Source of the DNA: Congeria kusceri
Taxonomy: Eukaryota; Mollusca; Bivalvia; Myida; Dreissenidae
DNA length: 64,000 bases
Assembly: GCA_027627225.1 (NCBI GenBank)
Contig: JAPFQT010000157.1
Location: 62,001-126,000, forward strand
Direction of reading: 5' to 3'
Shown: in pieces, positions 8,550 through 55,230 of the stretch
How the letters are laid out: each line of letters begins with the position of its first letter
Position numbering within the stretch: position 1 is the stretch's first letter
Translations under genes and position numbers: made by a program
Notes under the pieces: generated by a model
Told to the model about the DNA's origin: nothing
What the model saw: the letters and a program-made list of their open reading frames with translations, nothing else
Databases searched by the model: none

Positions 8550-9849
8550 GAAATAAGTAAGTAAGTAAGTAATTCTTTTATTACCATGTGCATACAACTG
8601 AGTAAACAAGCATATACAAAGCAAAAATGTAAATTGAGCACCCGGCCCAGTGGACCTATATGTCACCATCAATAAATATGTGATTAAATTTCGTTCCATA
8701 TAAATATTTACAAAATACTTTATCATAAGCATGATATGGGCAATAATGAATATAAAACTGGATATTGATACAAACAAATATTCATATATCACTATGAAAT
8801 TATGGGATAATAACAAGTATGATTTATAAGTAAATTGGTATTTCGCCTATGGAAATACGCTTTCACAATGAATTCGGCTGATATCCTGGGGTGCAATGTT
8901 AATAGCATTTTTAGTGTTTCCTCACAGTTATCTGTTGACAGTAACGCTATAGTGTTACTCATAGTGCTGGTCCTAATGTCATCGTACAGAGAGCACTCTA
9001 GCAAGAAGTGTGATTCACTTTTAACTGTTTCAGAGTCACAAAATCGACATAGCCTGTCTTCGGGGGATTCACCTATGTATCGTCCTGTTTCAATGCGTAA
9101 CGGAAGTATTCCCACTCGGAACTGGCATAGAACAGATCTTTCGTATTTAGAAAGATTCAATTTGACATAGTCTTTGCATTTAAATTCGCTCTTCAATGTT
9201 CTATATGTCCTGAGCTTTGGTGTCGCTTGTATATCACGGGACCATATTGCTGCGCAGTAACTACGTATGCGCGCTTCGGTGTCTTTGAGGTTAACTTTTA
9301 CTTTGTTTGTGAAATGATCGTTGAGTCCCAACGTGCACATTATAGGTTTAACCTCACTTGGCCAATTATTGTCACACTCAGTATCATGCAGGAATACTTT
9401 CTTCGTGAGACTTGTGTCGTCCATGTCGATAAGCCTATTCCAGAACCTCAGGGCACACTGCCACCGCCTGTAGACACTTGGTATCCAGCCCGTGTCACCG
9501 TGGATCGCTAGCGTAGGGGCGAACCTGTGGACGCCCAGGAAGTAGCGGAGTGCTTTGTTCTGTATGTTGTCAATGCACTGAAACTGCTTTAGTCCCCAAA
9601 CTGCAGCACTATAGTCCAGTATCGGTGTAACACAACTTTTAAAAAGTTTCTCAAATGCCTGAAATCCAAATTCTTTCCAATTATGGATTTTGCTGATGAT
9701 CGCTCCGAGCGCCCGTCCACCGCTCTTCGCAAGTGACTCCGCGTTAAATGTGTAATTGTTCTTTTCATGAAAAATCACTCCAAGATACTTATATTGTTCT
9801 ACAGTCTCTAGGGTGTTTTCTCCAACTTTAAACACAAAGTCAAACTGAA
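8550..9849 (-). mobile_element. 3' fragment of a LINE retrotransposon
   Basis: A minus-strand retrotransposon tail: the end of ORF2 (8792-9848), a short 3' UTR, and a (CTTA)n microsatellite at 8551-8568, a usual LINE 3' terminus. The upstream side is cut where the palindromic MITE at 9850 begins, so the reverse-transcriptase catalytic domain is absent. No target duplication could be defined. Confidence 0.8.
8792..9835 (-). pseudogene. LINE ORF2, C-terminal part (5'-truncated)
   Basis: A 347-codon open frame matching the region after the reverse-transcriptase catalytic core of non-LTR retrotransposon ORF2 proteins. It starts with the 'YKYLGV' block and continues with 'PILDYSAAVWG', 'NKALRYFLGVH' and 'RFWNRLI', all typical of metazoan CR1/Jockey-group LINEs. 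Near the C-terminus 'RLCRFCDSETVKSESHFLLE' followed by C and L, Y gives the Cys/His cluster (C-x2-C, H, C) seen at the end of these proteins. The YxDD catalytic motif would lie upstream and is missing. The frame stays open to about 9848, where the MITE begins. There are no internal stops, so the copy is probably young, but it cannot mobilise itself. Family level is confident; the exact LINE clade is not. Confidence 0.85.
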
Positions 9850-10190
9850 ATAATTTTCGATTTATCGTTGTTTATCGGCCAATAAAAACAATTTGGAGAT
9901 CTGGTGCGCAGGAATTAAATAACGAAGGCGCTTACACGAGTTGTTTAATAACCACGCATCAAAACGACTTAAAGTTATTTTTTGGCAGATAGACAACGGT
10001 AATGCAAAAACTATTTCGATTCTAGCATGATTTGACATATATTTTTGCAATTGTAATTGGAACTACTTTTTACAATGCTCTGCTCAGAATTGGGACTTCT
10101 TTTTGCGTTGTTTATTGGGTAGTTTAACAACGAAAATTTTGTTGTTTGTCTATAGAACAATTAGCGAGTATCATGTTAGAATAAAGGATA
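9850..10190 (+). mobile_element. Palindromic MITE family 'P', copy A
   Basis: Begins 'gaaataattttcgattta', then 'cgttgtttatcggccaat', an inverted partner arm near 9955-10015, and the tail 'tctatagaacaattagcga', ending near 'tatcatgttagaata'. The same arms and tail occur at five other places in this window. It has no coding capacity. It abuts and truncates the LINE frame on its left. Confidence 0.8.
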
Positions 10191-15810: not shown

Positions 15811-16651
15811 ACAAGAGATGTTTGTAAAACATGTAATACCCTCGACTTGCAGCCAAGTGGTGAATATGTGCAATTGTTAAGATTTTTTTTAATATGCAAT
15901 CCCAAGCGAGTTCTCGATATATGATATCTATGTATGAAGTTTCATGAAAATATCTCGATGCGTTCTCAAGTTATTGAGCGGAAATGGTTTTGCTATTTTT
16001 AGTAACGATGACCTTGACCTTGACCCCACCCATCCCACATGCAATCCCAAGCGAGGTCTCGATGTCAGGTATCTATGTATAAAGTTTCATTAAAATATCT
16101 CAATGCGTTCTCAAGTTATTGAGCGGAAACCGTTTTTCTATTTATAGTCACGGTGACCTTGACCCCACCCACCCCATATGCAATCCCAAGCGAGGTCTCA
16201 ATATAAGGTATCTATGGATGAAGTTTCATTAAAATATCTCAATGCGTTCTCAAGTTATTGAGGGGAACCGTTTTTCCATTTTTAGTAACGGTGACCTTGA
16301 CCTTGACCCCCCACACACCATATGCAATCCCAAGCGAGGTCTCGATGTAAGGTATCTATGTATAAAGTTTCATTAAAATATCCCAATGCGTTCTCAAGTT
16401 ATTGAGGGGAACCCGTTTTTCTATTTTTAGCAACGGGTACCTTGACCTTTGACCTGTTGACCTCAAAATATATAGGCTTTCTTTCCTCCCAAGTAACCAG
16501 CGTACCAACTTTCATGATCGTAGGACAAAGCGTTTTCAAGATATAGTGCGGAAACGAAATGGTCTACGGACAGACCTACCGACCGACCGACCGACCTACC
16601 GACAGGTGCAAAGCATGATACCCCCACTTCTTCGAATGGGGGGCATAATAA
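15811..16651 (+). repeat. 'gaccttgacc' long-period tandem element, copy 1
   Basis: Four to five units of about 140 bp with 'gcaatcccaagcgaggtctc', 'aagtttcattaaaatatctc', 'cgttctcaagttattgagcg' and 'gtgaccttgaccccaccc'. The element starts 'acaagagatgtttgtaaaac' and ends with a 'ccgaccgaccgacc' run and 'ggggggcataata'. These bounded ends suggest a dispersed element carrying internal tandem repeats. Relatives are at 50192-51355 and 60540-61385. Confidence 0.85.
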
Positions 16652-23029: not shown

Positions 23030-24514
23030 CACTGTCCAAGAACTGGGGAATGGTGTAGTTGAAGAATGGAAGACCACACGTCTGTATAGCTTACATCAAT
23101 TGTAGAACTGGCGAATGGTGTAGAAAGGAAGACCACATGTCTGTATAGCTTACATCAATTGTAGAACTGGGGAATGGTGTAGTTGAAGAATGGAAGACCA
23201 CACGTATGTAAAGCTTACATCAATTGTAGAACTGGTGAATGGTGTAGAATGGAAGGCCACATGTCTGTATAGCTTACATCAATTGTAGAACTGGGGACTG
23301 CTGTAGTTGAAGAATGGAAGACCACATGTCTGTATAGCTTACATCAATTGTAGAACTGGGGACTGCTGTAGTTGAAGAATGGAAGACCACATGTCTGTAT
23401 AGCTTACATCAATTGTAGAACTGGGGAATGGTGTAGTTGAAGAATGGAAGACCACATGTCTGTATAGCTTACATCAATTGTAAAACTGGGGAATGGTGTC
23501 GTTGAAGAATGGAAGACCACATGTCTGTATAGCTTACATCAATTGTAGAACTGGGGAATGGTGTAGTTGAAGAATGGAATACCACATGTCTGTATATCTT
23601 ACACCAATTGTAGAACTGGGGAATGGTGTAGTTGAAGAATGGAATACCACATGTCTGTATAGCTTACATCAATTGTAGAACTGGGGAATGGTGTAGTTGA
23701 AGAATGGAATACCACATGTCTGTATAGCTTACACCAATTGTAGAACTGGGGAATGCTGTAGTTGAAGAACGGAATACCACATGTCTGTATAGCTTACACC
23801 AATTGTAGAACTGGGGAATGCTGTAGTTGAAGAATGGAATACCACATGTCTGTCTAGCTTACACCAATTGTAGAACTGGGGAATGGTGTAGTTGAAGAAT
23901 GGAATACCACATGTCTGTATAGCTTACACCAATTGTAGAACTGGGGAATGGTGTAGTTGAAGAATGGAACACCACATGTCTGTATAGCTTACACCAATTG
24001 TAGAACTGGGGAATGGTGTAGTTGAAGAATGGAAGACCACATGCCTGTATAGCTTACATCAATTGTAGAACTGGGGAATGGTGTAGTTGAAGAATGGAAG
24101 ACCACATGTCTGTATAGCTTACATCAATTGTAGAACTGGGGAATGCTGTAGTTGAACAATGGAAAACCACATGTCTGTATAGCTTACATCAATTGTAGAA
24201 CTGGGGAATGGTGTAGTTGAAGAATGGAAAACCACATGTCTGTATAGCTTACATCAATTGTAGAACTGGGGAATGCTGTAGTTGAAGAATGGAATACCAC
24301 ATGTCTGTATAGCTTACATTGTAGAACTGGGGAATGCTGTAGTTGAAGAATGGAAGACCACATGTCTGTATAGCTTACATCAATTGTAGAACTGGGGAAT
24401 GGTGTAGTTGAACAATGGAAAACCACATGTCTGTATAGCTTACATCAATTGCAGAACTGGGGAATGGTGTAGTTGAAGAATGGAATACCACATGTCTGTA
24501 TAGCTTACATCAAT
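23030..24514 (+). repeat. 65-bp minisatellite, left part
   Basis: About 23 copies of a 65-bp unit: 'accacatgtctgtatagctt', 'acatcaattgtagaactggg', 'gaatggtgtagttgaagaat', 'ggaag'. The last unit is interrupted in 'catcaatt' by the 13.5-kb transposon, and the array resumes at 38050 in the same unit phase. Small minus-strand frames at 24184-24691 are repeat by-products. Confidence 0.95.
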
Positions 24515-24612
24515 TAACCAGTAGACAGCGAGGAGATCGCTCCACCCACTGATCACGTGACCAAACCCTTGGACAACTTTCGACGACAAAATGGCCGACA
24601 CGCTATCGTTGA

Positions 24613-25083
24613 GGTTACAGTATACTAAATATTTCAGGTGTGCAATGCTATACTCTCTAAATAAATCAACACCATTTATTTGAAGACACAATTTTCTGTA
24701 TAGTCACTTGCCATGACTTTATTTTTGAATATTTCTTTGTACGTGTGGTAGGAAAAACATTGTTGTGTACTAAAAATTCACTGTTTCGCTTGAAGGTTGG
24801 AGACTACATGACGAGACTTTGACAGTTGGCAGTATACCTTCAACTGGAGAGTATCCGGTAAAAAGATGGCCGTAAAACAGTGAACTTTGATTCGCGTCGA
24901 GTTCTTTCTTACATATCACATGACCTATCTTTTTTATTGTCTAAATCAATTCGGCTCGGAATGCTCTTTAAGAAAAGGTATGGTTATGAGGGTCTCTACG
25001 CGCAAAATGTTGAGTTTATTTTTTGTTGAATTTATTGCTTTTACATTGAATTTGTTAAGGAAATCTTTTAGTATATTGTGACC
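24613..25083 (+). repeat. Direct repeat 1 (471 bp) with TIRs at both ends
   Basis: Starts GGTTACAGTATACTAAA and ends TTTAGTATATTGTGACC, so it has the ends of a complete small transposon (MITE-like). Left flank is TTGA, right flank is TAAA. It contains no convincing gene; a 64-codon plus-strand frame (24887-25081) starts at a non-ATG codon. It probably carries the promoter of the adjacent plus-strand endonuclease-like gene. Confidence 0.9.
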
Positions 25084-25130
25084 TAAACTGACTTTGGGTT
25101 AAAATAAAATATCGTCTGCAAGTGCAAAAT

Positions 25131-25672
25131 ATGGATGAGAAAGCAGATTTTTGGTCATTTCTGAGCAAAAGAGTAGAAAATATGTGCATTAAATGCATCA
25201 ATTCAGATTGTTTGATCTGGAATGGTTGTATTTCAAATAGTTCCTTACCCTATTATGGCCGAATGAGGGCTAAATTGCCTTCGGACATAAAATCAGAGAC
25301 ATACTTGGTTCACCGTGTAGCGTTAATGTGCTACATGAAGTCAGAATTGAACGCCAGGGACTCTGTGAGCCACTTATGCAACAATAGCTTGTGTGTTAAG
25401 CCTGAACATGTAAACATAGAGCCCCATTCCACCAACATGGAACGGCGGACATGTTTACAGTTCGGACAGTGCAGCGGGCATGGAACTGAGCCAGCCTGCA
25501 TATTTGGTAAAAACATGAATACAACAAGCTTTATCACTTCCTTTTATTCATAGAAATACACTTAAAATACATAAATGCATGTTTTTTTTCATTTTATATC
25601 TATTTCTATTGGGTATTTTTGCCTTTTTCAGGTAGAGGAACGCCTGATGCTGACGCGAGGGCCACTTGTTAG
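25131..25672 (+). CDS. His-Me finger (I-PpoI-like) endonuclease-like protein, unit 1
   Basis: Exons 25131-25506 and 25632-25672, with a 125-bp GT-AG intron ending in a pyrimidine-rich 'ttttttgcc...cag'-type acceptor; product 138 aa. The ATG at 25131 is the first in frame. Motifs: 'WNGC' (30-33), 'YYGRM' (41-45), 'LVHRVALMCY' (59-68), 'SHLCNNSLCVKPEH' (80-93), 'STNMERRTC' (100-108), then C114, H117, C123. This is the zinc-binding loop pattern of I-PpoI-type homing endonucleases; H81 is the likely catalytic His and N102 a candidate metal ligand. Family knowledge: such nucleases cut specific long sites in DNA. Its use by this transposon is inference. Its stop lies 57 bp from the stop of the convergent transposase. 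Without splicing the frame would run on to about 25553 with an unrelated tail. Confidence 0.8.
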
Positions 25673-25729
25673 AGGTCTCTTATGCCAAAACAGGTAATAA
25701 TAACAATTTATTATCAGGTACACAATCAA

Positions 25730-27688
25730 CTAAGCATATTTATGATGCTTAAGGTGTGGAAGACTGTCATAATCAGGTTTGGGGTCACTCATGCCCTTGC
25801 CGTAGTGTAATTCCTCATGCAGTTTGTATCGATAATTCCGCGTCCTGGCACGTAAAGCTCGTGCTTTGTTGGTAGCGGATGTTTGCTTTCGGTTAAGGTC
25901 GTTGCGGTCCTCATATGCTATCTGCTTAATAATCTTTGACCCCTGGGTAAGGTTAGCATTTAGTTCAGTGGTTTTTGCAATTACAGAGTCAGCATAGCCA
26001 TTGTTTAATTTGTGAACCTGCCCGTGAATTCGACCTACACAGTTGCGTGAGAAAGTCACAGTTTTAGGATTGACAGCTTGGTACGACCTGTTTACTGCTT
26101 CACTTTTTTGGGTTGTGGTTAAAAGTTTGGTAGCGTCAAGAGCAGCTGGACCTAAAACCATTTCAATGCATTTTTTAAGGACTTGTTGGTCACTGTCAAC
26201 CATTTTAACCTTGACATTGTCTGGCATGAAATTCTTAGCTTGCCTATTTGTACCAGCACAGACATAACTGTACTTTGCACAATGAGTACCGCAGTAACCA
26301 CTGAAGCATAGAACAATGGTTGCGATTACATCAACCATGACCTTCTTTAGAACCTTGATGTCACCCTGGTGTTTATTGTGGGCAGCTTTAAGCTCAGCCA
26401 TACACCTAGCTTTGACCGAGAGAGCGAACCGACTCCTGATATTAGACTTGGAATGACCCTTGAGCATGCCCTTTGAGAAAGGCGCTTTGTTGAGCTCGCG
26501 CTTCAGCGAGTTGCCTAGGTGCCTCAGATCCTTAAGATGACCCACATTGTGACCGTGAGAGTTACGAACACCTTGGAATGCCCTACTGTCCCCATCACAA
26601 GTGAAATTTGCTATTTTGATGTCCTTAGAGATCTGGTCACCTAACAACCTATTCCATTTGCCTTCATCACCTATTGGTTCCCTCTCTGAAACATTTGCAG
26701 AACAATGCCCCCTATGATTGGGGCACTGAACAGGTTTACCCTTATTCCTAAGCATTGATGCAGTCCTGCATAGTTTATTTGCTACTTGTACCACTACAAT
26801 TTGCTTGTTTCTGGTATTGTTTTCACACATAGTGCTTATGGCAATAGTTCCGGCTTGAAAGGGTGTCGCGTCAGAGTTAAAAATTGGATTGTTGTAGCAA
26901 GTGTCCCCTTCAACATTTACCTTAGAGGGATCTTTTTGACCAATTTTGGCATTTTCAGCAACTAAGTTTTCTCTAATCTGGTACATGCTTCTCTCATTTA
27001 GGGATTTAAGGGCAGTATTGACCTTATTTGCTTGTTTTTGCATAGCAAGTGGAGAGGGAGCAATGATATTGGTTGTGTTGAGAATTCTGCGGGAACCTGT
27101 GTTCCCAATAGAAGTACTTGCAACACCTATTTGGAAGCCTACATTGATCTGAGCTGCCTTTCTGGCCCTGGTACTTGATGGAACCTCATTGTAAAGCTTA
27201 TAATGCTTGCCTACATATCTGCATCTTGTACATTTTAACCTTTCCTCCCAGCCTAAGCCCCACTTTATGGAAGCACTGCCGTCAATTACCAAGTCGCCCC
27301 TACATTTATCACTTCTTAACCTATGCTTTCTATTTTCAGAGGACATCATAGACTGGAGTAGGGCGGGGACATAGACCTTGTTCGTAAGTAAGTCGGGATG
27401 GACTTTTGATGGAGCAGGAACCCGTAACAGGTCTACATAGCGAATCTTGTTCGCTCTCGGACGCAAGGGCTTAGCTGGGGTTTGAGAGCCGTCTACATCC
27501 CGAAAAGTAAGAACCTTGTCATTGTAAGCTACCCGTGCTTCAAAGGATGACCTTTCTAACCTTACATAGGTTGTGTTGGAATTTGACCTTCTTTCATAAT
27601 TATGTTTTTTCCCCTTCACCGGACTAGTCCCACCTCGTTTAAAACCAACATTGAGCAACTTTTTCTTTTGCTTGGTTATGAACCCCAT
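25730..27688 (-). CDS. Mutator-like DDE transposase, unit 1
   Basis: Single-exon 652-aa frame starting at ATG 27688. Basic N-terminus (1-50), a zinc-knuckle-like 'CTRC' (153-156) after 'IKWGLGWEERL', then the catalytic core. 'EGDTCYNNP' provides D262, 'FTCDGDSRAFQG' the second Asp at D365 (or D367), 'KDLRHLGNS' the DxxH motif (387-390), and 'TTQKSEAVNRS' the likely Glu E530, followed by 'PKTVTFSRN'. 'CPNHRGHCSAN' (322-332) and a Cys-rich 'CFSGYCGTHC' (461-470) lie between. This order is what I know from Mutator-like transposase domain proteins of invertebrates. An AATAAA for this strand is at 25707-25712, just past the stop. Non-coding 27689-28406 precedes it and would hold its promoter. The frame is intact, so it may be active. 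Confidence 0.85.
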   Translation of the reverse strand: MGFITKQKKKLLNVGFKRGGTSPVKGKKHNYERRSNSNTTYVRLERSSFEARVAYNDKVLTFRDVDGSQTPAKPLRPRANKIRYVDLLRVPAPSKVHPDLLTNKVYVPALLQSMMSSENRKHRLRSDKCRGDLVIDGSASIKWGLGWEERLKCTRCRYVGKHYKLYNEVPSSTRARKAAQINVGFQIGVASTSIGNTGSRRILNTTNIIAPSPLAMQKQANKVNTALKSLNERSMYQIRENLVAENAKIGQKDPSKVNVEGDTCYNNPIFNSDATPFQAGTIAISTMCENNTRNKQIVVVQVANKLCRTASMLRNKGKPVQCPNHRGHCSANVSEREPIGDEGKWNRLLGDQISKDIKIANFTCDGDSRAFQGVRNSHGHNVGHLKDLRHLGNSLKRELNKAPFSKGMLKGHSKSNIRSRFALSVKARCMAELKAAHNKHQGDIKVLKKVMVDVIATIVLCFSGYCGTHCAKYSYVCAGTNRQAKNFMPDNVKVKMVDSDQQVLKKCIEMVLGPAALDATKLLTTTQKSEAVNRSYQAVNPKTVTFSRNCVGRIHGQVHKLNNGYADSVIAKTTELNANLTQGSKIIKQIAYEDRNDLNRKQTSATNKARALRARTRNYRYKLHEELHYGKGMSDPKPDYDSLPHLKHHKYA

Positions 27689-28406
27689 TTTGACCAGATT
27701 GCCACCTTAAAAAAAGTCAAAGTACTTATTTTGTGCCCAAAATATGCAATTTTGTATTCCCTTAAACCTCTAAATGTGAGCAGGCAATGCAAATTGACCA
27801 CCTGCTGCAGTTTAAAGGCACTCATGACATTATATACTAGAATATATAATTGGTGGCCTGTAATTAAAGAGGCTGCGACAAACAAGGTGCTTTAAAGATT
27901 TTACACTTTATTGGTTTGAAACAAGCAATTACTGGAAGCTGATTGATTTCTACACTTCAAAGTATCTTTGATCTCCCATTTTGACTAATTTGTTAATTGT
28001 CTTGGATGAAATTGGAATTTTTTTTCTATAAAATTTACATTTTTGGGGTGATTTTTTTTAAAAAATACACAAAAAATACATTATCAAAATGGCTTAGAGT
28101 AAACATATCTAACAAAGTCATTCTCTCCTCACCCCACATAAGCCCCCCATACATGTTTGTTTGGTTTGTTTGGGTATTTTGTCACAAATATTGCAAATAT
28201 CAGCTTTATTTGTTAGAGGGACATTTAAGCTTCAAGACGCTTGAAATCACCGGCTTCCGACCAAAATCACCTGTGTTTGAAAATATGAAATAAAATGGCC
28301 AAATGGACAGATATACAAGCCAAACTTAATATATTGGTGCAATATGCATGGGAAGATAATTATATGCAAGAAAAACTAATTTTAATGAGAACAAATTTCT
28401 CTTATA
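27689..28406. other. Non-coding 5' region of inner unit 1
   Basis: AT-rich sequence between the transposase start and direct repeat 2. Short frames on both strands (27602-27895, 27997-28293, 28295-28477) lack domains. Its last bases before the repeat are 'cttata'. The corresponding part of unit 2 is 31484-32201. Confidence 0.5.
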
Positions 28407-28877
28407 GGTTACAGTATACTAAATATTTCAGGTGTGCAATGCTATACTCTCTAAATAAATCAACACCATTTATTTGAAGACACAATTTTCTGTATAGTCA
28501 CTTGCCATGACTTTATTTTTGAATATTTCTTTGTACGTGTGGTAGGAAAAACATTGTTGTGTACTAAAAATTCACTGTTTCGCTTGAAGGTTGGAGACTA
28601 CATGACGAGACTTTGACAGTTGGCAGTATACCTTCAACTGGAGAGTATCCGGTAAAAAGATGGCCGTAAAACAGTGAACTTTGATTCGCGTCGAGTTCTT
28701 TCTTACATATCACATGACCTATCTTTTTTATTGTCTAAATCAATTCGGCTCGGAATGCTCTTTAAGAAAAGGTATGGTTATGAGGGTCTCTACGCGCAAA
28801 ATGTTGAGTTTATTTTTTGTTGAATTTATTGCTTTTACATTGAATTTGTTAAGGAAATCTTTTAGTATATTGTGACC
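28407..28877 (+). repeat. Direct repeat 2 (471 bp)
   Basis: Middle copy; by eye it looks identical to repeat 1. It is flanked by TATA on the left and TAAA on the right, so it has no target duplication of its own. It separates the two internal units and serves both as the end of unit 1 and the start of unit 2. Confidence 0.9.
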
Positions 28878-28924
28878 TAAACTGACTTTGGGTTAAAATA
28901 AAATATCGTCTGCAAGTGCAAAAT

Positions 28925-29467
28925 ATGGATGAGAAAGCAGATTTTTGGTCATTTCTGAGCAAAAGAGTAGAAAATATGTGCATTAAATGCATCAATTCAG
29001 ATTGTTTGATCTGGAATGGTTGTATTTCAAATAGTTCCTTACCCTATTATGGCCGAATGAGGGCTAAATTGCCTTCGGACATAAAATCAGAGACATACTT
29101 GGTTCACCGTGTAGCGTTAATGTGCTACATGAAGTCAGAATTGAACGCCAGGGACTCTGTGAGCCACTTATGCAACAATAGCTTGTGTGTTAAGCCTGAA
29201 CATGTAAACATAGAGCCCCATTCCACCAACATGGAACGGCGGACATGTTTACAGTTCGGACAGTGCAGCGGGCATGGAACTGAGCCAGCCTGCATATTTG
29301 GTAAAAACATGAATACAACAAGCTTTATCACTTCCTTTTATTCATAGAAATACACTTAAAATACATAAATGCATGTTTTTTTTTCATTTTATATCTATTT
29401 CTATTGGGTATTTTTGCCTTTTTCAGGTAGAGGAACGCCTGATGCTGACGCGAGGGCCACTTGTTAG
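28925..29467 (+). CDS. His-Me finger (I-PpoI-like) endonuclease-like protein, unit 2
   Basis: Second copy of the gene at 25131, offset by 3794 bp in exon 1 and 3795 bp in exon 2. Exons 28925-29300 and 29427-29467; the intron is one T longer (poly-T tract). The protein is identical in translation to unit 1, with the same 'SHLCNNSLCVKPEH' core, the four downstream Cys/His positions and the spliced C-terminal tail ending in Cys. Convergent with the transposase at 29525. No change points to loss of function. Confidence 0.8.
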
Positions 29468-29524
29468 AGGTCTCTTATGCCAAAACAGGTAATAATAACA
29501 ATTTATTATCAGGTACACAATCAA

Positions 29525-31483
29525 CTAAGCATATTTATGATGCTTAAGGTGTGGAAGACTGTCATAATCAGGTTTGGGGTCACTCATGCCCTTGCCGTAG
29601 TGTAATTCCTCATGCAGTTTGTATCGATAATTCCGCGTCCTGGCACGTAAAGCTCGTGCTTTGTTGGTAGCGGATGTTTGCTTTCGGTTAAGGTCGTTGC
29701 GGTCCTCATATGCTATCTGCTTAATAATCTTTGACCCCTGGGTAAGGTTAGCATTTAGTTCAGTGGATTTTGCAATTACAGAGTCAGCATAGCCATTGTT
29801 TAATTTGTGAACCTGCCCGTGAATTCGACCTACACAGTTGCGTGAGAAAGTCACAGTTTTAGGATTGACAGCTTGGTACGACCTGTTTACTGCTTCACTT
29901 TTTTGGGTTGTGGTTAAAAGTTTGGTAGCGTCAAGAGCAGCTGGACCTAAAACCATTTCAATGCATTTTTTAAGGACTTGTTGGTCACTGTCAACCATTT
30001 TAACCTTGACATTGTCTGGCATGAAATTCTTAGCTTGCCTATTTGTACCAGCACAGACATAACTGTACTTTGCACAATGAGTACCGCAGTAACCACTGAA
30101 GCATAGAACAATGGTTGCGATTACATCAACCATGACCTTCTTTAGAACCTTGATGTCACCCTGGTGTTTATTGTGGGCAGCTTTAAGCTCAGCCATACAC
30201 CTAGCTTTGACCGAGAGAGCGAACCGACTCCTGATATTAGACTTGGAATGACCCTTGAGCATGCCCTTTGAGAAAGGCGCTTTGTTGAGCTCGCGCTTCA
30301 GCGAGTTGCCTAGGTGCCTCAGATCCTTAAGATGACCCACATTGTGACCGTGAGAGTTACGAACACCTTGGAATGCCCTACTGTCCCCATCACAAGTGAA
30401 ATTTGCTATTTTGATGTCCTTAGAGATCTGGTCACCTAACAACCTATTCCATTTGCCTTCATCACCTATTGGTTCCCTCTCTGAAACATTTGCAGAACAA
30501 TGCCCCCTATGATTGGGGCACTGAACAGGTTTACCCTTATTCCTAAGCATTGATGCAGTCCTGCATAGTTTATTTGCTACTTGTACCACTACAATTTGCT
30601 TGTTTCTGGTATTGTTTTCACACATAGTGCTTATGGCAATAGTTCCGGCTTGAAAGGGTGTCGCGTCAGAGTTAAAAATTGGATTGTTGTAGCAAGTGTC
30701 CCCTTCAACATTTACCTTAGAGGGATCTTTTTGACCAATTTTGGCATTTTCAGCAACTAAGTTTTCTCTAATCTGGTACATGCTTCTCTCATTTAGGGAT
30801 TTAAGGGCAGTATTGACCTTATTTGCTTGTTTTTGCATAGCAAGTGGAGAGGGAGCAATGATATTGGTTGTGTTGAGAATTCTGCGGGAACCTGTGTTCC
30901 CAATAGAAGTACTTGCAACACCTATTTGGAAGCCTACATTGATCTGAGCTGCCTTTCTGGCCCTGGTACTTGATGGAACCTCATTGTAAAGCTTATAATG
31001 CTTGCCTACATATCTGCATCTTGTACATTTTAACCTTTCCTCCCAGCCTAAGCCCCACTTTATGGAAGCACTGCCGTCAATTACCAAGTCGCCCCTACAT
31101 TTATCACTTCTTAACCTATGCTTTCTATTTTCAGAGGACATCATAGACTGGAGTAGGGCGGGGACATAGACCTTGTTCGTAAGTAAGTCGGGATGGACTT
31201 TTGATGGAGCAGGAACCCGTAACAGGTCTACATAGCGAATCTTGTTCGCTCTCGGACGCAAGGGCTTAGCTGGGGTTTGAGAGCCGTCTACATCCCGAAA
31301 AGTAAGAACCTTGTCATTGTAAGCTACCCGTGCTTCAAAGGATGACCTTTCTAACCTTACATAGGTTGTGTTGGAATTTGACCTTCTTTCATAATTAAGT
31401 TTTTTCCCCTTCACCGGACTAGTCCCACCTCGTTTAAAACCAACATTGAGCAACTTTTTCTTTTGCTTGGTTATGAACCCCAT
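29525..31483 (-). CDS. Mutator-like DDE transposase, unit 2
   Basis: Second 652-aa copy, starting at ATG 31483. It differs from unit 1 at two residues that I can see: His29 is Leu29 (tat/taa context near 31395) and Thr573 is Ser573. Neither touches the D262, D365, DxxH(387-390) or E530 positions. Both copies are free of stops or frameshifts, so the duplication is recent, has been kept uniform by gene conversion, or is an assembly effect. Its 5' non-coding region 31484-32201 matches that of unit 1. Confidence 0.85.
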   Translation of the reverse strand: MGFITKQKKKLLNVGFKRGGTSPVKGKKLNYERRSNSNTTYVRLERSSFEARVAYNDKVLTFRDVDGSQTPAKPLRPRANKIRYVDLLRVPAPSKVHPDLLTNKVYVPALLQSMMSSENRKHRLRSDKCRGDLVIDGSASIKWGLGWEERLKCTRCRYVGKHYKLYNEVPSSTRARKAAQINVGFQIGVASTSIGNTGSRRILNTTNIIAPSPLAMQKQANKVNTALKSLNERSMYQIRENLVAENAKIGQKDPSKVNVEGDTCYNNPIFNSDATPFQAGTIAISTMCENNTRNKQIVVVQVANKLCRTASMLRNKGKPVQCPNHRGHCSANVSEREPIGDEGKWNRLLGDQISKDIKIANFTCDGDSRAFQGVRNSHGHNVGHLKDLRHLGNSLKRELNKAPFSKGMLKGHSKSNIRSRFALSVKARCMAELKAAHNKHQGDIKVLKKVMVDVIATIVLCFSGYCGTHCAKYSYVCAGTNRQAKNFMPDNVKVKMVDSDQQVLKKCIEMVLGPAALDATKLLTTTQKSEAVNRSYQAVNPKTVTFSRNCVGRIHGQVHKLNNGYADSVIAKSTELNANLTQGSKIIKQIAYEDRNDLNRKQTSATNKARALRARTRNYRYKLHEELHYGKGMSDPKPDYDSLPHLKHHKYA

Positions 31484-32201
31484 TTTGACCAGATTGCCAC
31501 CTTAAAAAAAGTCAAAGTACTTATTTTGTGCCCAAAATATGCAATTTTGTATTCCCTTAAACCTCTAAATGTGAGCAGGCAATGCAAATTGACCACCTGC
31601 TGCAGTTTAAAGGCACTCATGACATTATATACTAGAATATATAATTGGTGGCCTGTAATTAAAGAGGCTGCGACAAACAAGGTGCTTTAAAGATTTTACA
31701 CTTTATTGGTTTGAAACAAGCAATTACTGGAAGCTGATTGATTTCTACACTTCAAAGTATCTTTGATCTCCCATTTTGACTAATTTGTTAATTGTCTTGG
31801 ATGAAATTGGAATTTTTTTTCTATAAAATTTACATTTTTGGGGTGATTTTTTTTAAAAAATACACAAAAAATACATTATCAAAATGGCTTAGAGTAAACA
31901 TATCTAACAAAGTCATTCTCTCCTCACCCCACATAAGCCCCCCATACATGTTTGTTTGGTTTGTTTGGGTATTTTGTCACAAATATTGCAAATATCAGCT
32001 TTATTTGTTAGAGGGACATTTAAGCTTCAAGACGCTTGAAATCACCGGCTTCCGACCAAAATCACCTGTGTTTGAAAATATGAAATAAAATGGCCAAATG
32101 GACAGATATACAAGCCAAACTTAATATATTGGTGCAATATGCATGGGAAGATAATTATATGCAAGAAAAACTAATTTTAATGAGAACAAATTTCTCTTAT
32201 A
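31484..32201. other. Non-coding 5' region of inner unit 2
   Basis: Near-identical to 27689-28406. Same short frames without domains, same 'cttata' before the third direct repeat. Confidence 0.5.
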
Positions 32202-32672
32202 GGTTACAGTATACTAAATATTTCAGGTGTGCAATGCTATACTCTCTAAATAAATCAACACCATTTATTTGAAGACACAATTTTCTGTATAGTCACTTGC
32301 CATGACTTTATTTTTGAATATTTCTTTGTACGTGTGGTAGGAAAAACATTGTTGTGTACTAAAAATTCACTGTTTCGCTTGAAGGTTGGAGACTACATGA
32401 CGAGACTTTGACAGTTGGCAGTATACCTTCAACTGGAGAGTATCCGGTAAAAAGATGGCCGTAAAACAGTGAACTTTGATTCGCGTCGAGTTCTTTCTTA
32501 CATATCACATGACCTATCTTTTTTATTGTCTAAATCAATTCGGCTCGGAATGCTCTTTAAGAAAAGGTATGGTTATGAGGGTCTCTACGCGCAAAATGTT
32601 GAGTTTATTTTTTGTTGAATTTATTGCTTTTACATTGAATTTGTTAAGGAAATCTTTTAGTATATTGTGACC
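32202..32672 (+). repeat. Direct repeat 3 (471 bp), right end of the inner element
   Basis: Third copy. Its right TIR end GTGACC is followed by TTGA, the target duplication, and then by the rest of the YqaJ gene's first exon. Confidence 0.9.
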
Positions 32673-33196
32673 TTGAGTGCTATTCCCAGCGCGTTTGGCG
32701 AACATTTTTTGCAATATAAGCCGTCATTGCGACAGAGAATTCAAGGGCGAAAGTTTGCGAATGAGTCGTACGTTGCCTTTGTGAATTTTTATAAAGGTTT
32801 GGATACGGAAATCTTGGTTAAAGCCGGGGTTTATCGAAGCCAGAGGCGTAATGACGATGCGCATAAAATCAACTTGTCGGTGGATGGAGATTCGATTTCG
32901 TATGCACTTTGCAGTTGCACGGCAGGGTATGTCAAGTTTACGTGTTCTTTGTTCGTAATTAAATTGTATAAAACCAACATTTAAACAATTAATCATAATT
33001 AGCTATTGTCGAAAGTCCTTATTGTTCTAAATCATTATGTAAACATTGCATCACTGTGCTAATTAAATTGCCTAAACTACATTTGATCTACATTCTACAG
33101 TACTATATTATAATAATTGATATATTGTACACCTCTACGCAGTATAGACAGTATCAATGTTTGCTCCAGCGTTGGAAATGTTTTATTGCATTTAAG

Positions 33197-33453
33197 AAAT
33201 AATTTTCAATTTATCGTTGTTTATCGGTCAATAAACAATGTTATGGAGTTATGATGCGTAGGAATTAAACCACAAGGGCGTTAAATTATTCCATTTATGA
33301 CATGATCTGTCAAATTATTTTGCAATTGTAATGAGGAATACATTTTACTATGCTCAGCTGCACTAGGAATCTGGAGTACTTTTTCATTGTTTATTGTGTA
33401 TTTTAACAACGAAAATTTTGTTCTTTGTCTATAGAAGTGAGTATCATGTTAGA
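33197..33453 (+). mobile_element. Palindromic MITE family 'P', copy C
   Basis: 'gaaataattttcaatttatc', 'gttgtttatcggtcaataaac', a shortened second arm, then 'tttgtctatagaagtgagta' and 'tcatgttagaatga'. It lies wholly in the first intron (32927-33585) of the outer transposon's YqaJ gene, so it inserted after that element existed or travelled with it. Confidence 0.75.
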
Positions 33454-34271
33454 ATGAGAATTAGGTCTATGATTCCTTGGTCATACAAGAGACTGGCGTG
33501 CATTTAACATATAATGTATGATTTTGTTTGTCATTTAAGACAAAAAAGTCATGATGAATAGTAAAAACAATTTCACTTTTTGCAGTGCATCTGGTGAGGG
33601 TGCACACATCTTGGCAGTCGTGTTCAAGATCACAGATCGGATTCTGCTCGGTTTGAAAGAGGTGCCTGTAGACCCAGCCTGCACGTCTCTTCCCCAACAA
33701 GGGGATCGACCCCGCGGTGCAAAGATATTGCCAGAACCAGTTGCCACCATGGTGATATCAAAACCCGCAAATACTACAAGAAAGAAGCGACCACTTGTTG
33801 CAGACTTTACTGATAACAGGTATATACTTTCATGAACAGATTACTGGTATTAGCCTAAGGATAACTAACAATAAGTGTAAAATATATTAACTTTGCTTTG
33901 CAAGTCACATTTATGCAACAAGTAAATCATTGATTTCTTTGAGTACAAAGTAACCAACATGTGTAGTGGTATTTTGCTCTCTTTTTCACACCAACACATT
34001 TCATATAACATATTTATTACATTTATGACAACAATTTTTTGGTAGCAAGTATATTCATACATCAGTTTTGTTTTTCAATGTTCTACATTCCCACAACATA
34101 TATATTTTATTTCCAGAAAAATACAGTTGCTGAAGACTGACCTTGAACATCTGCAGTCGCTGGATAGATGCCCAATTGCATATTTGGCGCATGATCCTGG
34201 TCATAACGGAACTGCCTGTGGACAGCAGAATTTAGGCAGTGCTCTAAGATATCAGGTATATTACATGATTA

Positions 34272-37200
34272 CTAGTCCTGTATCAACAATGGCATAAATT
34301 GTGTCAGAAAACAGCAATTGAACCAAATATGATTCACAACAGGAAACAGGGAAAGGTCCACACGATTGTCAACTATTTTAAATTTCTTCACACGAGCTAT
34401 TGCTCGTTCTACATGTACACGATGTTTTGCAATTTGGCGTGTTAATGTAACATCACTGGGTGTCATTTGCGTTGCTTTTGATGCAAATGGTGGAATAAGC
34501 AATTTAAGTCCAAGCATTTTAATTTCATCCTCAATGAGAAAGCCCTTGTCAACCATAACTGAGTCGCCTTTTTTCAACTTTCCAGCTGTTATTAAATCAC
34601 GAAGTAAATCCAGTAAACCACTTTGCTTTGTAATTTCCTTGTCTGATGTGGAGCCAGAGAAAAGCATAGATATAAATATAAATGAGCCCCTGGGATCTAT
34701 ACCAACTAAACCCTTAAGTGTAGTGGCCGACTTATAATCTGAGTAACACTGACTTTGAGATTTTAAAGAAGGTCTTTCTACTTTAATCTCAGTTCCATCT
34801 AATATAACCATGGTTTCTGGAAATACTTCTTTGAACTTTGGTGGCATATTATCTATTATCACATCTCTATTAGGCCAAATGGGTACAGATCCAAAGCTGA
34901 AAAACATATAGTTCATCCAATTTCGAAACAATAACCCAGCATCGGGTGGGGTGATACTGAAAAGGTTAGCTAAATGAATAAAGTCCACATTCAAACGCAG
35001 TTTAATGAGCACCATTAAAAACCGGTCTTGAAGCCTCATCGACTTGAACACTGAAATTCGTTTTGATATTTCAAATGGGATCTGTGATTCAGTTGGCACC
35101 AGAAACATAAATATATTCATGAATTGTGTGTACACAAATCCAGTATAGTACTTAAAGTTATTTTTAATGGATGAATCTCTCACAGATTCAACGGTCATTG
35201 GTTGACTTTGTTGGTGGCTTTTGCTTTGTTTCTCTACCTTGTTTATCACATTTTTGAACTTTAAATTTTCACGTCTAAGTTCTTCATTACACAGTATCTG
35301 TGCTGCTAGTTGCCTCTTCAACGAGTCATTTTCAGCTGTGATTGCCAAAAGCTGCAATGGTGCCACACCAGAATCTGGAAACAAAAGTAATTAAATACAG
35401 CTATTGTTTATGGACATGCCACATATTTTGTATCATTAATCTATTTCAGTTGCCCCTGGTTAAACAAGCAGACAACCCTGTTGGTCAGTCTTTTCCTTGT
35501 GGACAGCTGGCCTTTCCAGTGGTTACAGACACTGACTGGAGCAAGGCTGATGATGAAGACTGGTCAAAAGTTGAGTTGACTTTGTCGGAGGCTGTTCAGT
35601 TGGAAAAAAACACAAGACAACAGAACAGCTGTGAGTTGTGGATGGACCAGCGGAGGCACAGAATTACTGCGTCCAATTTGGGCCGCTATATGAACAGACG
35701 CGTGTCTTTCACACAGAAATTTGTGGATTCTGTTCAAAAACAGAAGCCATTTAAATCACCCGCCACGTCATATGGCTCTGCAAATGAAAAGGTTGCCCGA
35801 CTGATGTATCAGAAGAAAACTGGCAGTCATGTGCATGACTGCGGGCTTGTAGTCAACCCGGCATTCCCATTCATTGGAGCCACACCCGATGGGAAAGTGT
35901 GCGACTCCAAGACAATGGAAACGGGTATCCTAGAAATAAAGTGGCCGTTTTCCATCAGGGACATGAGCATTATGGATGGTATGACTGCCATGAAAGGTCA
36001 CACTCAATTCCATTTGGAAATGGATGAGAACAAAATCAAATTTAAAAAAATTCATGCATACTTCTTTCAAGTGCAGGGACAGTTGCTTGCTACAGGAGCC
36101 CAGTTTTGTGATTTTGTAACTTTTACAAAGTGTGAAATTCTTGTCGAAAGAATTTTTCATGACAAATCTGTCCAGTCTGATATAGTAAAAACAGCTAGAA
36201 TGTTGTATAAAACTTTCCAGTTTTAAAAGTATACCTGAAATAGAGCTGTCTTGTGGTTGAAATTGACTGCAAACGTCTTGATTAATCTGGCCGTCCGTTG
36301 CAACATTCTCTTTATTGCTGAAAGAATTATTATGTTTTACAAATAATGGAAGATTGTAGCTTTAACATGTCAATGTTATTGATATGATTGTTTGATATGT
36401 TGTCAGGAAGCATTTAATGGCTCTTCTAATTTTACTAATTTATTTAGTAAAACAAATATGTTATGTCATAAAAAAGTGACAAACCTGTGAAGACATAATT
36501 ATGTTATGGAAATGGGCTTTGTTTCAAAGGGTATTGTTGTTTTTTTTTGCTGATGGCTTGAGAGGTGTATTAATAAACTGCATGATAATTGATCTATGAT
36601 TGTTGTTATTCCTTGTTTCATGATGTAGAACTCACTGGACTACATAAAAGTGCAGGCTGTTTTTTCAATTAATCACAGTAGCCAGTATATAAAAAAGTAT
36701 TTGAAATAACCCACTGACCTGAAGCCCGGAACCAGTAAAATTCTATACCGGGAAGTTAAAATTTTGACCTGCCTGCCCAAAAGAGCATGTACAAAAAGGA
36801 TGAACAATTTTGAAATTACGATTCAATAATACAACAATGTTCATAATTTTTTTCTCAAAATATATCATCACCTGATTTTCTTTCCATATGACTGACTACA
36901 TGAAAACATCGCTATCATTTATAACGTTTATATACTATATGAGTTTTATTTCCTCATTTTGGACAAGTTCAGTTGAAATTGTATGGCTTATGCCCGAATG
37001 CACAAGCCCTTTCAAACAAGTTATTGTGAAGACTACTAAAATGCATTTAACAAGTACATACTTGTTTGTTCCATCAGCAGAACTTGACAGTGGTATCAGG
37101 ACTTTTTTCAAAGTTGCGGATACTGAGCGGTACTTAGGTGGTGGCCGTCTTGGTGTAATTTCCTGTCTTGAATATGGGGTGATAGCAGGTATTGGGTCTG

Positions 37201-37864
37201 GATAAGCTTCACTTGGCCTTCCATCATGGAAGTGCTAAAATAACATAACATTGATATGCATAAAACTGATACTTATGCTGCTGCTCTTATAGCAAAATGT
37301 AAAAATAAGTAAACATTTCCATATAAAGTTAAATAAGATAATGTTCTGTCAAGAATACAACAGTAAAACACAATATAGACTCTTACTTGTCATCATAAAA
37401 GATTTTCATACAAATAAACAAACTTTGATCTGGATCACTGAGAAGTCGTATTTACACTGTGCCATATAAGGAGTTTTACAACCGAAGTTGGCAATATAGT
37501 AAATTTTCATTGGTCAATAAATCGAATTACAATGACATAAGCAGCTCGTAACCATAGATGGAAATAAAACATTCAAGCGTTTGTATTGATCAAGAGCATA
37601 AGCCTTTTAAGTTTAACTATAGGCTAATCATTCATGCAATATTAAAAACGTTCTAACCTTACTGCAGACGTAAAGGCAGTAGTTTCCTCTTACGATCTCT
37701 ACATCTAGCTGGTGTTTGGGCCGACCGCAAGCTTTAATCCACTGCTTGCATCGCTCAAGCTGATATTTCGGTTTCTGGAACGGATGGAACACAACACCAC
37801 CTTCCAGACGTTCTTTATACCTACTATCGCTGTTACACAGCCCCCACTGGCACCGTTTAACCAT
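34272..37864 (-). CDS. THAP-DDE transposase of the outer ISL2EU-like element
   Basis: Four exons on the minus strand: 37658-37864, 37062-37234, 36235-36317, 34272-35374. All introns are GT-AG and the phases join to 521 aa. Residues 1-90 are a THAP zinc finger: C5, C10, C67, H70 (C2CH), W42, and 'PDPIPA' after it; THAP domains bind the element's ends in related transposons. Residues about 155-205 look like a coiled coil, about 265-312 a helix-turn-helix region preceding the nuclease, and the rest a DDE_Tnp_4-type core: D347 ('ILDGTEI'), D430 ('MVDKGF'), E477 ('VERAIARVKKFK'), with the conserved 'GSTSDKE' at 394-400. No stops or lost catalytic residues, so it may be functional. Its big exon sits inside a YqaJ-gene intron, and its stop is 16 bp from that gene's preceding exon. 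Confidence 0.9.
36318..37061. other. Transposase intron 2; no other gene
   Basis: AT-rich intron of the minus-strand transposase and 3' flank of the YqaJ gene; a plus-strand AATAAA lies near 36572. The plus-strand frame at 36888-37205 overlaps a real minus-strand exon and is a shadow. Confidence 0.6.
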
Positions 37865-38049
37865 TTTTCGCGATTTAAAATGAGTTGCAATTATCACTTA
37901 GTTAGAGAATAAACCAGATCTCCTTTCGGTTAGGTTGTCCAAGAAAAACGCCCGGATGTAAAACTTTACTAGGTGCGCGTCAACGGACGATTTTCATTGG
38001 TTAATCGGTTATCGGTTCTAGAATTGTGGGCGGAGCCGTCTACTGGTTA

Positions 38050-38183
38050 ATTGCAGAACTGGGGAATGCTGTAGTTGAAGAATGGAATACCACATGTCTG
38101 TATAGCTTACATCAATTGTAGAACTGGGGAATGCTGTAGTTGAAGAATGGAATACCACATGTCTGCATAGCTTACATCAATTG
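38050..38183 (+). repeat. 65-bp minisatellite, right part
   Basis: Two further units of the array that ends at 24514, in the phase expected if the 13.5-kb element were removed. Confidence 0.95.
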
Positions 38184-38274
38184 TTATTAGCATCAGCGAT
38201 CTATAGCTATAATAAGTGCATTAAATATTCATATTTCTATACGAATTGAATGTTCAGGAGGGGGGGGGGGGGCG

Positions 38275-47177: not shown

Positions 47178-50100
47178 CTATTGCACTTTGAACACCAGGA
47201 TGTTGTTGTTGTTCCATTGTCCCACAAGGATGGAGGCTGTGTGCCTGTTGTAGCAGACTGACAGTGGTCTCCTCACTCCATCCCTGCATGTAGCCAGAGT
47301 GGCCAGGTTCTTCCTGCCCTCCCTGTCCACCTGTATGATAGCGTGGGACCCCCATCCACAGACCAACACCTGGCCTGCAGGTGTCACATGTACAGCATGT
47401 GGGTATCGTAGTTCAGGGTCCTCCAATGTAGAGAGTACAGACCCATCCCTGGCCAGGGTGAGGAGCTTGTGCTGGGAGTAGTCGGTGATGTATATACGAT
47501 CCCCTGTTGGACTCACAGCACACCTGTATACTGCAAAACAGAGTCACTTCAAGATATTAAATTACTTTATATGTTTAATAATGTTAATACACAAACTGCA
47601 GTGACATCGTATTATTAATGCGTCGTTAAACAGACAATTATGCATCTTAAAGATCTGCATAAAATCCAATAATAATGAATATTTTAGTGTGACAGGAAGG
47701 TTCTGTATCAGTTTATTGCCTAAAAGTTTGACACGTTGACTGGTGAGTTAGAATTGAAGTCTACCACAATTACACGGTACAGTGAACATGTATACATGAA
47801 TGTGTAACTATACGCAGTAATAACAGATTGCCTATACAGGTATACATGAATGTGTAACTATATGCAGTAATAACAGATTGCCTATACAGGTATACATGAA
47901 TGTGTAACTATATGCAGTAATAACAGATTTCCTATACATGTATACATGAATGTGTAACTATATGCAGTAATAACAGATTTCCTATACATGTATACATGAA
48001 TGTGTCAGCTGATGCAACTATGGCATATGCAGTATTAATAGATTTTCTATACATGTATACATGATTACTGACATCTGTGTTATTCTATAGCTGACACAGG
48101 CTGACATATTTATAACACGTACAGGTACATTATAATAACAGAAGTTAAGCTTTTACGACAGGAAATATGTTTCAAAACAACATGAAATAAAACTTTTCTC
48201 TCTCGTTCTTCTACACAAGTAACACAAGCCAGTTGTTATTTAAACAGTTTTAAAAATACAAATCTATTAATTTAACAAATTTCAACTACAACAATTTAAA
48301 GTCTATTTACTTCATATAACGTTTGGAAACACGATGAATTATGAAACAATAATGCATGTATATTTACTCGAAAACCACAAAATATAAACAGCAGGTCACA
48401 GAGTGTGTCAGTGATTTGCACTCAGTTTCTATTTATAGACATGCCATGAAGTCAGAAGTGACAGTTAAAATACATTATTACTTATATATATAAATCAATA
48501 ATATTGAAAATCATTCTTTACTGCTGTTGTAATAATAAATTGACACACATGTATATTCTACAACTATGCAGTCTTACAATTACTTTATGATACATATTGC
48601 TAATAATATCCGGATGAACCCGCCATGATTCTAACCTGTACGATTATCTGATGTATCCTCATACAGCTTGCTGACCAGTTTCCCACTCAGCGCGTACTTG
48701 TACAGTGCAGTCCATGAAGTGACATACAGCTCCCCCTGGTGGTGGGCAATACATATACAGCGATGTTGTAACTGAAGCTTCCTGCCCTTCACCAGCTGCC
48801 CATTGTTGACAGAGATAAACTGGATCTCATGTGTGTTATCATCATTCACAGTAACAGCAACTTCACTGTGTGTTATATGACATATGTCCTGTGGATCAGT
48901 AGACACATCACAATGAGTAAGCACCCTGTACTGCTGGTCCAGCAGCTTTAATTTGTTATTACTGTAGTCTACAACAAGGATCTGGCCATCAGGGAGAACA
49001 CATATGCCACTGATAAAGCATGGTGATGAATCACTTGGTATGCTCACATTATACTGTGACTTTCCTTTAACAGTCAATACTTGGTCTGGGTTTCCCTGCA
49101 CTGTCAATGGCTGGGTACCGTGTACGATCCTCCCCAGACCTGACAGTTTGGACAAGTACTGCTCAATGTCACTGTTAGGCTGGAATGTTAGTGAACTTTT
49201 AACCTGAACAGAGTTCTCCTTCAAATATGTTTCAGACTGTTGTATTTTGTCGCTACATTTCTTGCTCGCTATAAAGGAGAGTTCTTTCATGCTCATATCA
49301 CTGATGTCCTGAATGGCTTCATGCAGTATTTTCAAGTCGTCACGAAGCCTTCTGCAGTTGTTCACATCAGTCTTGAGAGAAGCTTGCAGACTTGTGAGTG
49401 TATTTTTCATTTCCTTCAAAGTGATTTTTTCAATATTGTCTAAAGTGTCATTTATTTTTCTGCGTGTTTCTCGTATTTTGTGTAATTGTTCATCATATGA
49501 ACCCTGCAGTGACTTAATGTGGGTCTCCCAATTTGTTTGAAGATTGTTCATTTGTTCCTGAATTGTTTGAAGCTTCACTGCAAACTGCTGCAGGTCAGTT
49601 GACTGGGTTTTGACACACTCAGATACAAGCGTCACTTTGGTGCACTGTCTGAAACAAAATATAGTATATTATAATAAAATGCTTAAAATTATTTGACAAA
49701 TATTTATTAAATATTAAAAAAACAAACTGTTATACATATTCTAAGTTCAAAGCTTGTGAGATGGATGGTTTACATTGGCCCTTTCAAAACAATATGTGGC
49801 GTGTCGTCGGAAAACCGGGCTTAATGCATGTGCGTAAAGTGTCGTCCCGGATCAGCCTGTGCGGATTCCGCACAGGCTAATCAGGGATGGCACTTTCCGC
49901 CTATAGTGGATTTATGTTTAGAAGAGACTTGAAACGGAAAATATCATAGCTTAAAGTGCCATCCCGGATTAGCCTGTGCAGAATGCACAGGCTAATCAGG
50001 GATGACACTTTACGCACATGCATTAAGGCCAGTTTTCCCACGACATGCCTCATATATTCTTCTACTGGATATTTAAGCGTACTTTGGCACATAAAATAGA

Positions 50101-54374: not shown

Positions 54375-55230
54375 TTTGCTTATTGACTTTCAGCAAACAA
54401 AACTTTACAACTTAAATTAAATTGAAATATTAATGTCACAGTGTCTCTGTTTAAATTAATAAATATGCCAGAAAGCACACATTAAATGTAGTGGCAATTA
54501 TAGTCAAGCAATAAAAACTTCCAACTGAACAGAAACCAAGATAACCTTCAAATGACGCTCAGTGGTCTGATACATGTACCAGTAAACAGTGTAACTATGT
54601 GAACTGTCACGTGAGTATTAGGTCACGTGAGTATTGGATTAATTTAAATATTGCACTGCGACAAACGTTTTGTAGCTGAAATGTAGGTTACATTGAACAA
54701 GTTTTTATCACACAGACCAAATGCAGTTGGTTTAAACGTGTACTGATCAATGTTTATATTATGTTTATTATTTAAAAGATTTACCACACTGACTATTTTA
54801 TCACAGTTGTCATTTCCTTTTCCAAAATAGCAAACTGATTTGATCTTTTTCTCTTGAGTCACTTTAAAAACAATTTCCCTGTTTAATTCTCGTAATATGC
54901 TGCCAACTCCGATAATTAAAACCAAAGGGAGACAACTCCTGTCCTAAAACGCTTTAATTGTCTGACCCACATTAAGGACACACTGTCAGTATCAAATGTG
55001 GGTTCCAACTGATTATGTGAAGACTCACAATCAAACTTCAAATACAAAGTGAGGCAGCAACTGCTTTAAAAATATTTGTTTATATTTACCTTTTTACATA
55101 CTTTTTCGGTAAAGATCAACTTTATTGGAAATCATCTGAACATATATGCCCATTTTTTTTTCAAGTTTTTCAACTTCCTTATAGTGTTTCAGAGAACAAG
55201 TTTAAAGCAAAATGTTCACAATAAATGACA
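54375..55230. other. Upstream of the TRIM-like gene; no gene recognised
   Basis: Would contain the TRIM-like promoter and any 5' UTR exon. A 93-codon minus-strand frame (54644-54925) looks protein-like ('VCYFGKGNDNCDKIVSVV') but has no recognised domain and no consensus splice pair, so it is left uncalled. 'gtcacgtgagtat' occurs twice at 54606-54635. Confidence 0.45.

Follow-up and report, generated by a model that had tools for sequence, protein, structure and literature searches.

Repeat architecture of the locus

A stretch of 64,000 nucleotides from the bivalve Congeria kusceri (Dreissenidae; assembly GCA_027627225.1, contig JAPFQT010000157.1, positions 62,001 to 126,000 of the forward strand), hereafter designated the window, was analyzed for the structure of a repetitive element of 8 kb. 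The element consists of three 471-bp long terminal direct repeats (LTDRs) separated by two internal (INT) regions, each of which carries a transposase gene and a small second gene (Table 1). The three LTDRs are identical (0 differences in all three pairwise comparisons). INT 1 and INT 2 differ by two substitutions and a 1-bp indel located in a run of T, and by nothing else. One INT region with the LTDR on either side gives a monomer length of 4265 bp (471 + 3323 + 471). A first-pass annotation of this DNA had described three direct repeats of this size around two gene-bearing units of 3.3 kb, and these comparisons bear out that description.

Each LTDR has the 5' end GGTTACAGTATACTAAA and the 3' end TTTAGTATATTGTGACC. 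These ends form imperfect terminal inverted repeats (TIRs), in which 15 of 17 positions are paired, and the LTDR termini are GG...CC. A search of the window for the TIR 17-mer, allowing at most three mismatches, returned six matches for 0.38 expected, all of them at LTDR ends; a total of six was reached in none of 100 shuffles. Thus, every direct repeat bears both TIRs, as had been claimed at the outset. The outermost flanks of the element are TTGA on both sides, which corresponds to a 4-bp target site duplication (TSD) and to a single insertion. The inner junctions read TAAA at the start and TATA at the end of INT and show no duplication. Comparison of the flanks therefore also upheld the distinction that the first-pass annotation had drawn between duplicated outer and non-duplicated inner sequences. 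No other trace of the element was detected when one monomer was compared with the rest of the window by blastn (E ≤ 0.01). No open reading frame of at least 80 amino acids was found wholly within an LTDR, the transposase gene being internal instead.

Table 1. Coordinates of the element, of its genes, and of its insertion target, in positions of the window.
Feature	Position	Strand	Remarks
65-bp satellite around ISL2EU	23039-24515 and 38049-38184		
ISL2EU transposon, target of the dimer	24515..38049		5471 bp after subtraction of the dimer and of one TSD copy; YqaJ gene interrupted in exon 1
TSD, left copy	24609..24612		TTGA
LTDR 1	24613..25083	+	471 bp; own 17-bp imperfect TIRs
INT 1	25084..28406		3323 bp; TAAA start, TATA end
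His-Me finger nuclease gene 1 (predicted)	25131..25672	+	I-PpoI-type, zf-His_Me_endon; PF05551, E = 2.7e-10, unspliced frame
Nuclease gene 1, exon 1	25131-25506	+	
Nuclease gene 1, predicted intron	25507-25631	+	GT-AG
Nuclease gene 1, exon 2	25632-25672	+	
DDD/E transposase gene 1	25730..27688	-	652 aa (amino acids), no stop; PF20700, E = 8.2e-41, scored on the unit 1 reading frame; motif columns; H29, T573
LTDR 2	28407..28877	+	Common to both units
INT 2	28878..32201		3324 bp
His-Me finger nuclease gene 2 (predicted)	28925..29467	+	Protein frame and exon 2 the same as in gene 1
DDD/E transposase gene 2	29525..31483	-	652 aa, no stop; L29, S573
LTDR 3	32202..32672	+	
TSD, right copy	32673..32676		TTGA
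DDE_Tnp_4 transposase frame	34275-35390		Pfam; beside the YqaJ frame
YqaJ frame	35342-36226		Pfam

Genes of the element and relationship to KolobokP

The two genes of each unit are convergent, and neither the nuclease nor the transposase frame contains a stop in either copy. The minus-strand product matches PF20700 (Mutator-like transposase), and the two copies of this protein differ at residues 29 and 573 only. Forty homologues were found; to define the motifs, we aligned 16 of them with the window protein (17 sequences in all) and assigned the motifs following the order given for KolobokP transposons (Kojima and Bao, 2022, Mob DNA 13:24, PMC9587614). This order is D262, a CCHC finger (C307, C322, H325, and C329), D365 or D367, D387xxH390, a second finger (C461, C466, C470, and C477), and E530. 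Thirteen of the 14 motif columns are invariant in all 17 sequences, C466 being absent from two of them. D365 and D367 are both kept in 17 of 17 sequences, and either is a candidate catalytic residue. A search of the PDB with the single transposase sequence returned no credible relative.

The closest named transposases are four proteins of Dreissena polymorpha (83 to 87% identity), followed by a fifth match from this species at 51%; all named matches carry mollusc names, and none of the 40 homologues is identical to the window transposase. Judged from these matches, the host is probably a bivalve, either Dreissena or another genus. Two of the D. polymorpha proteins (P0002 and P0003) have consecutive locus tags (DPMN_175128 and DPMN_175129), and the sequence of P0003 recurs unchanged as the C-terminal 566 residues of P0002. 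Such an arrangement would be consistent with a tandem multimer in this species. Since the layout of DDE residues and zinc fingers is kept in the 17 aligned transposases, with identities to the window protein as low as 33%, the alignment, which covers the proteins only, favors an old and stable lineage over a local accident.

The small plus-strand gene is predicted to encode a His-Me finger nuclease of the I-PpoI type. Its frame matches PF05551 (zinc-binding loop of homing endonuclease) above the Pfam cut-off, and residues S80, H81, H93, E97, and N102 align without gaps with S97, H98, H110, E114, and N119 of I-PpoI. Two relatives were found among public proteins. The gene probably has one intron, according to a splice model picked by eye as one of four combinations of donor and acceptor sites; the product comprises 138 residues under the predicted splicing and 140 residues as an unspliced frame. 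Comparisons with known structures did not add significant support for the assignment to the I-PpoI type. In a profile search of the PDB, I-PpoI was recovered with a non-significant E value of 1.5, as the fourth of four matches and behind three that resemble chance matches. I-PpoI was absent from the PDB search performed with the single nuclease sequence, which returned no credible relative. In addition, the AlphaFold model, based on an alignment of three sequences, had a mean pLDDT (predicted local distance difference test score) of 31.4. Because the PDB searches were non-significant and the model was poor, the assignment rests on the Pfam match and on the residue spacing.

This combination of repeats and genes is already known, since it was published in 2022 as KolobokP, an animal DNA transposon of the form LTDR-INT-LTDR (Kojima and Bao, 2022). 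The LTDRs of KolobokP are about 450 or 660 bp in length, carry their own TIRs of up to 18 bp, and have 5'-RR and YY-3' ends; the TSD is 3 to 4 or 4 to 5 bp. The transposase is a Kolobok DDD/E enzyme with a C/DxxH motif, a CCHC finger after the first D, and a further finger before the E, and the second, convergent gene encodes an I-PpoI-like His-Me nuclease. In the same study, 228 families were characterized, KolobokP with LTDRs was reported from seven animal phyla, and the hosts in Table 1 of that paper include D. polymorpha and D. rostriformis. Autonomous oyster families measure 4,022 to 4,748 bp, and TSD-flanked multimers of the form (LTDR-INT)n-LTDR, solo LTDRs, and monomers were tabulated for three molluscs (Kojima and Bao, 2022).

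The element of the window agrees with this description in the length class of its LTDRs (about 450 bp), in their own TIRs with GG...CC as the RR...YY ends, in the 4-bp TSD, in the motif order of the DDD/E transposase, and in the convergent gene for a protein matching PF05551. The monomer falls inside the range published for autonomous oyster families, TSD-flanked multimers include the dimeric form (n = 2), and Dreissena is a listed host. No structural difference from KolobokP was found; the INT ends are TAAA and TATA in the window versus TATA and TATA quoted for KolobokP-1_MeMe (Kojima and Bao, 2022). We identify the locus as a young (LTDR-INT)2-LTDR dimer of an autonomous KolobokP transposon, with a probability of about 0.93. 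The composite-like design proposed in the first-pass annotation was right in kind, as it matches published KolobokP elements, multimers included.

The number of units is one point at which this identification might fail. Because only three differences separate the 3.3-kb units and the LTDRs are identical, the locus is hard for short-read assembly, and a near-perfect repeat of 3.8 kb might have been expanded or collapsed, the true locus containing one unit or more than two. However, the units are told apart by the two substitutions and the indel, and TSD-bearing multimers have repeatedly been reported for the KolobokP group (Kojima and Bao, 2022). An assembly artefact is therefore quite unlikely in our view.

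The first-pass annotation had also proposed, as one of two options, that ends resembling miniature inverted-repeat transposable elements (MITEs) captured an internal gene block. Read as a chance capture, this would mean that two solo MITEs enclosed an unrelated gene block to form an accidental composite. A lone LTDR does have the form of a MITE, and solo LTDRs have been proposed to be able to move on their own (Kojima and Bao, 2022). The enclosed block, however, encodes the transposase and the putative His-Me nuclease of a published lineage, and because this pair of genes occurs with LTDRs in seven animal phyla, the association between the LTDRs and the gene block is old. Chance capture at this locus is thus very improbable. 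The ultimate origin of the KolobokP lineage itself is left open in the original description (Kojima and Bao, 2022).

KolobokP was likened to composite DNA transposons by its describers (Kojima and Bao, 2022). Bacterial composite transposons and the pseudo-composites of IS26 resemble the element of the window in that a gene block lies between direct copies bearing both TIRs and in that a circular translocatable unit is possible (Kojima and Bao, 2022). In contrast, the transposase gene of the window is located in the internal block and not in the flanking repeats, its relatives are from animals, a homing-type nuclease appears to be encoded, and no passenger gene was seen. LTR (long terminal repeat) retrotransposons, with their solo LTRs and tandem arrays, likewise have direct terminal repeats that are common to tandem units, but the repeats of the window have TIRs, the transposase is of the DDD/E type, and no reverse transcriptase was present among the Pfam matches of the two genes.

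Insertion target and other features of the window

The target of the insertion is an ISL2EU transposon. Its inverted repeats of 19 bp (24511-24529 and 38035-38053, 95%) include AT duplications (24513-24514 and 38050-38051), and the junction with the surrounding satellite conforms to A|AT|T, which has been given as the ISL2EU target (PMC4482050). The presence of a DDE transposase frame and a YqaJ frame, together with the TIRs and the A|AT|T target, agrees with this family. Most autonomous ISL2EU candidates have a THAP domain in the transposase (PMC4482050). A THAP domain was not among the four Pfam families detected at 34275-35390, where a single stop-to-stop frame was scanned and where an upstream exon is possible.

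Rejoining of the flanks of the KolobokP dimer with one copy of TTGA restored a frame beginning MADTLSLSAIPSAFGEHF. The exon-1 frame (32661-32981) has no Pfam match on its own and was assigned to the YqaJ gene because homologues cover both the exon-1 part and the YqaJ domain. The insertion point was inspected in 13 YqaJ-family homologues among the 77 matches, some of which bear the source name "SWIM-type". Seven of the 13 align unbroken across this point and represent six different sequences (P0061 and P0067 are identical there), five are without the region, and one aligns from the breakpoint onward only. With the ISL2EU ends located in the satellite and the dimer located in exon 1, the locus is a three-level nest comprising the 65-bp satellite, ISL2EU, and the KolobokP dimer.

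This target bears on the origin of the DNA. The composite layout, taken by itself, would be compatible with a bacterial composite transposon or with contamination. The location within ISL2EU and a satellite, the predicted intron of the nuclease gene, and the mollusc names of all named transposase matches argue against this explanation. Eight pattern matches to the transposase in viral contigs and eight in prokaryote genome contigs were also considered, and in neither set was any match confirmed by tblastn. We regard the probability of a bacterial origin or of contamination as negligible.

Several other features were observed. Among the homologues, P0117 combines a YqaJ domain (PF09588) with the PF20700 transposase domain and may be a Kolobok transposase to which an exonuclease has been fused; a lambda-exonuclease-like nuclease has been described for the KolobokE lineage (Kojima and Bao, 2022). 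Elsewhere in the window, a 28-bp minisatellite is present in about 53 copies at 4559-6043, and related tandem repeats of about 140 to 145 bp, with the common consensus ATATGCAATCCCAAGCGAGGTCTC..., are found at 15892-16454 and 50357-51351. A frame of 359 amino acids on the minus strand (8792-9871) resembles by eye the C-terminal portion of a protein encoded by a non-LTR retrotransposon, and no Pfam match was obtained for it at E ≤ 0.001. NHL-repeat and B-box zinc-finger frames on the minus strand (47178-49668 and 54012-54389) are perhaps pieces of TRIM-like host genes.

Doubling of the element and a possible role of the nuclease

Since there is one outer TSD, and since the LTDRs are identical and the units nearly so, the copy is young. 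The few differences between the units and their absence from the LTDRs indicate only that the doubling is recent and are silent on whether it occurred before or after insertion. Two routes to multimers have been proposed, unequal crossover between LTDRs and integration of an LTDR-INT circle (Kojima and Bao, 2022). We infer that the doubling probably arose in place after insertion, an estimate that reflects judgement and not computation. According to this scheme, a KolobokP form, either the 4.3-kb monomer or a solo LTDR, would first have been inserted by the DDD/E transposase at a TTGA located in exon 1 of the ISL2EU YqaJ gene, the four bases being duplicated upon insertion. Either unequal recombination between LTDRs or an integrating LTDR-INT circle would then have supplied the second unit, and this doubling may have been stimulated by the putative His-Me homing nuclease of the element itself.

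The first-pass annotation had concluded that the 8-kb structure moved in its entirety as a single piece. The outer TSD is compatible with this conclusion and does not prove it, because extension in place gives an identical pattern, with this TSD on the outside and no duplication at the inner flanks. In the case of single-piece movement, the dimer would have been transposed from a donor dimer by means of its outermost TIRs, which accounts for a TSD present on the outside only and for inner junctions devoid of duplication. Each LTDR is a complete TIR...TIR substrate, so that any pair of these identical ends could in principle serve the transposase. The usability of the ends of any direct repeat, already suggested by the first-pass annotation, was argued by Kojima and Bao (2022) from LTDR excision, described as "strongly suggested", and from solo LTDRs, which are usually TSD-flanked. 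However, if a shorter form is inserted and LTDRs recombine afterwards, a kind of route proposed by the same authors, identical flanks arise, and nothing in the locus separates transposition of a dimer from doubling in place. We consider transposition as a single piece to be somewhat unlikely.

Doubling in place could have involved the nuclease. Cleavage of a site in one LTDR by the His-Me enzyme, followed by repair on the neighboring LTDR, would add an LTDR-INT unit, and the dimer would be a fresh product of this reaction. Nuclease-induced multiplication is in itself a published model (Kojima and Bao, 2022, legend to Fig. 5c). That it operated at this locus is, in our opinion, doubtful. A candidate cleavage site, TTAAGG, is present once per LTDR (25055-25060 in LTDR 1) and ends 23 bp before the LTDR 3' end; we take this hexamer to be part of the I-PpoI recognition site. 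The motif is a weak indicator, as it was also present in 27% of 2000 mononucleotide-shuffled LTDRs. The overhang produced by I-PpoI is given as TTAA (Kojima and Bao, 2022). The candidate site is the only addition made here to the published model and constitutes a weak lead. As a young copy with intact frames and an exactly defined target, the dimer of C. kusceri offers a test case for discriminating between nuclease-induced unequal crossover and multimer transposition in KolobokP.

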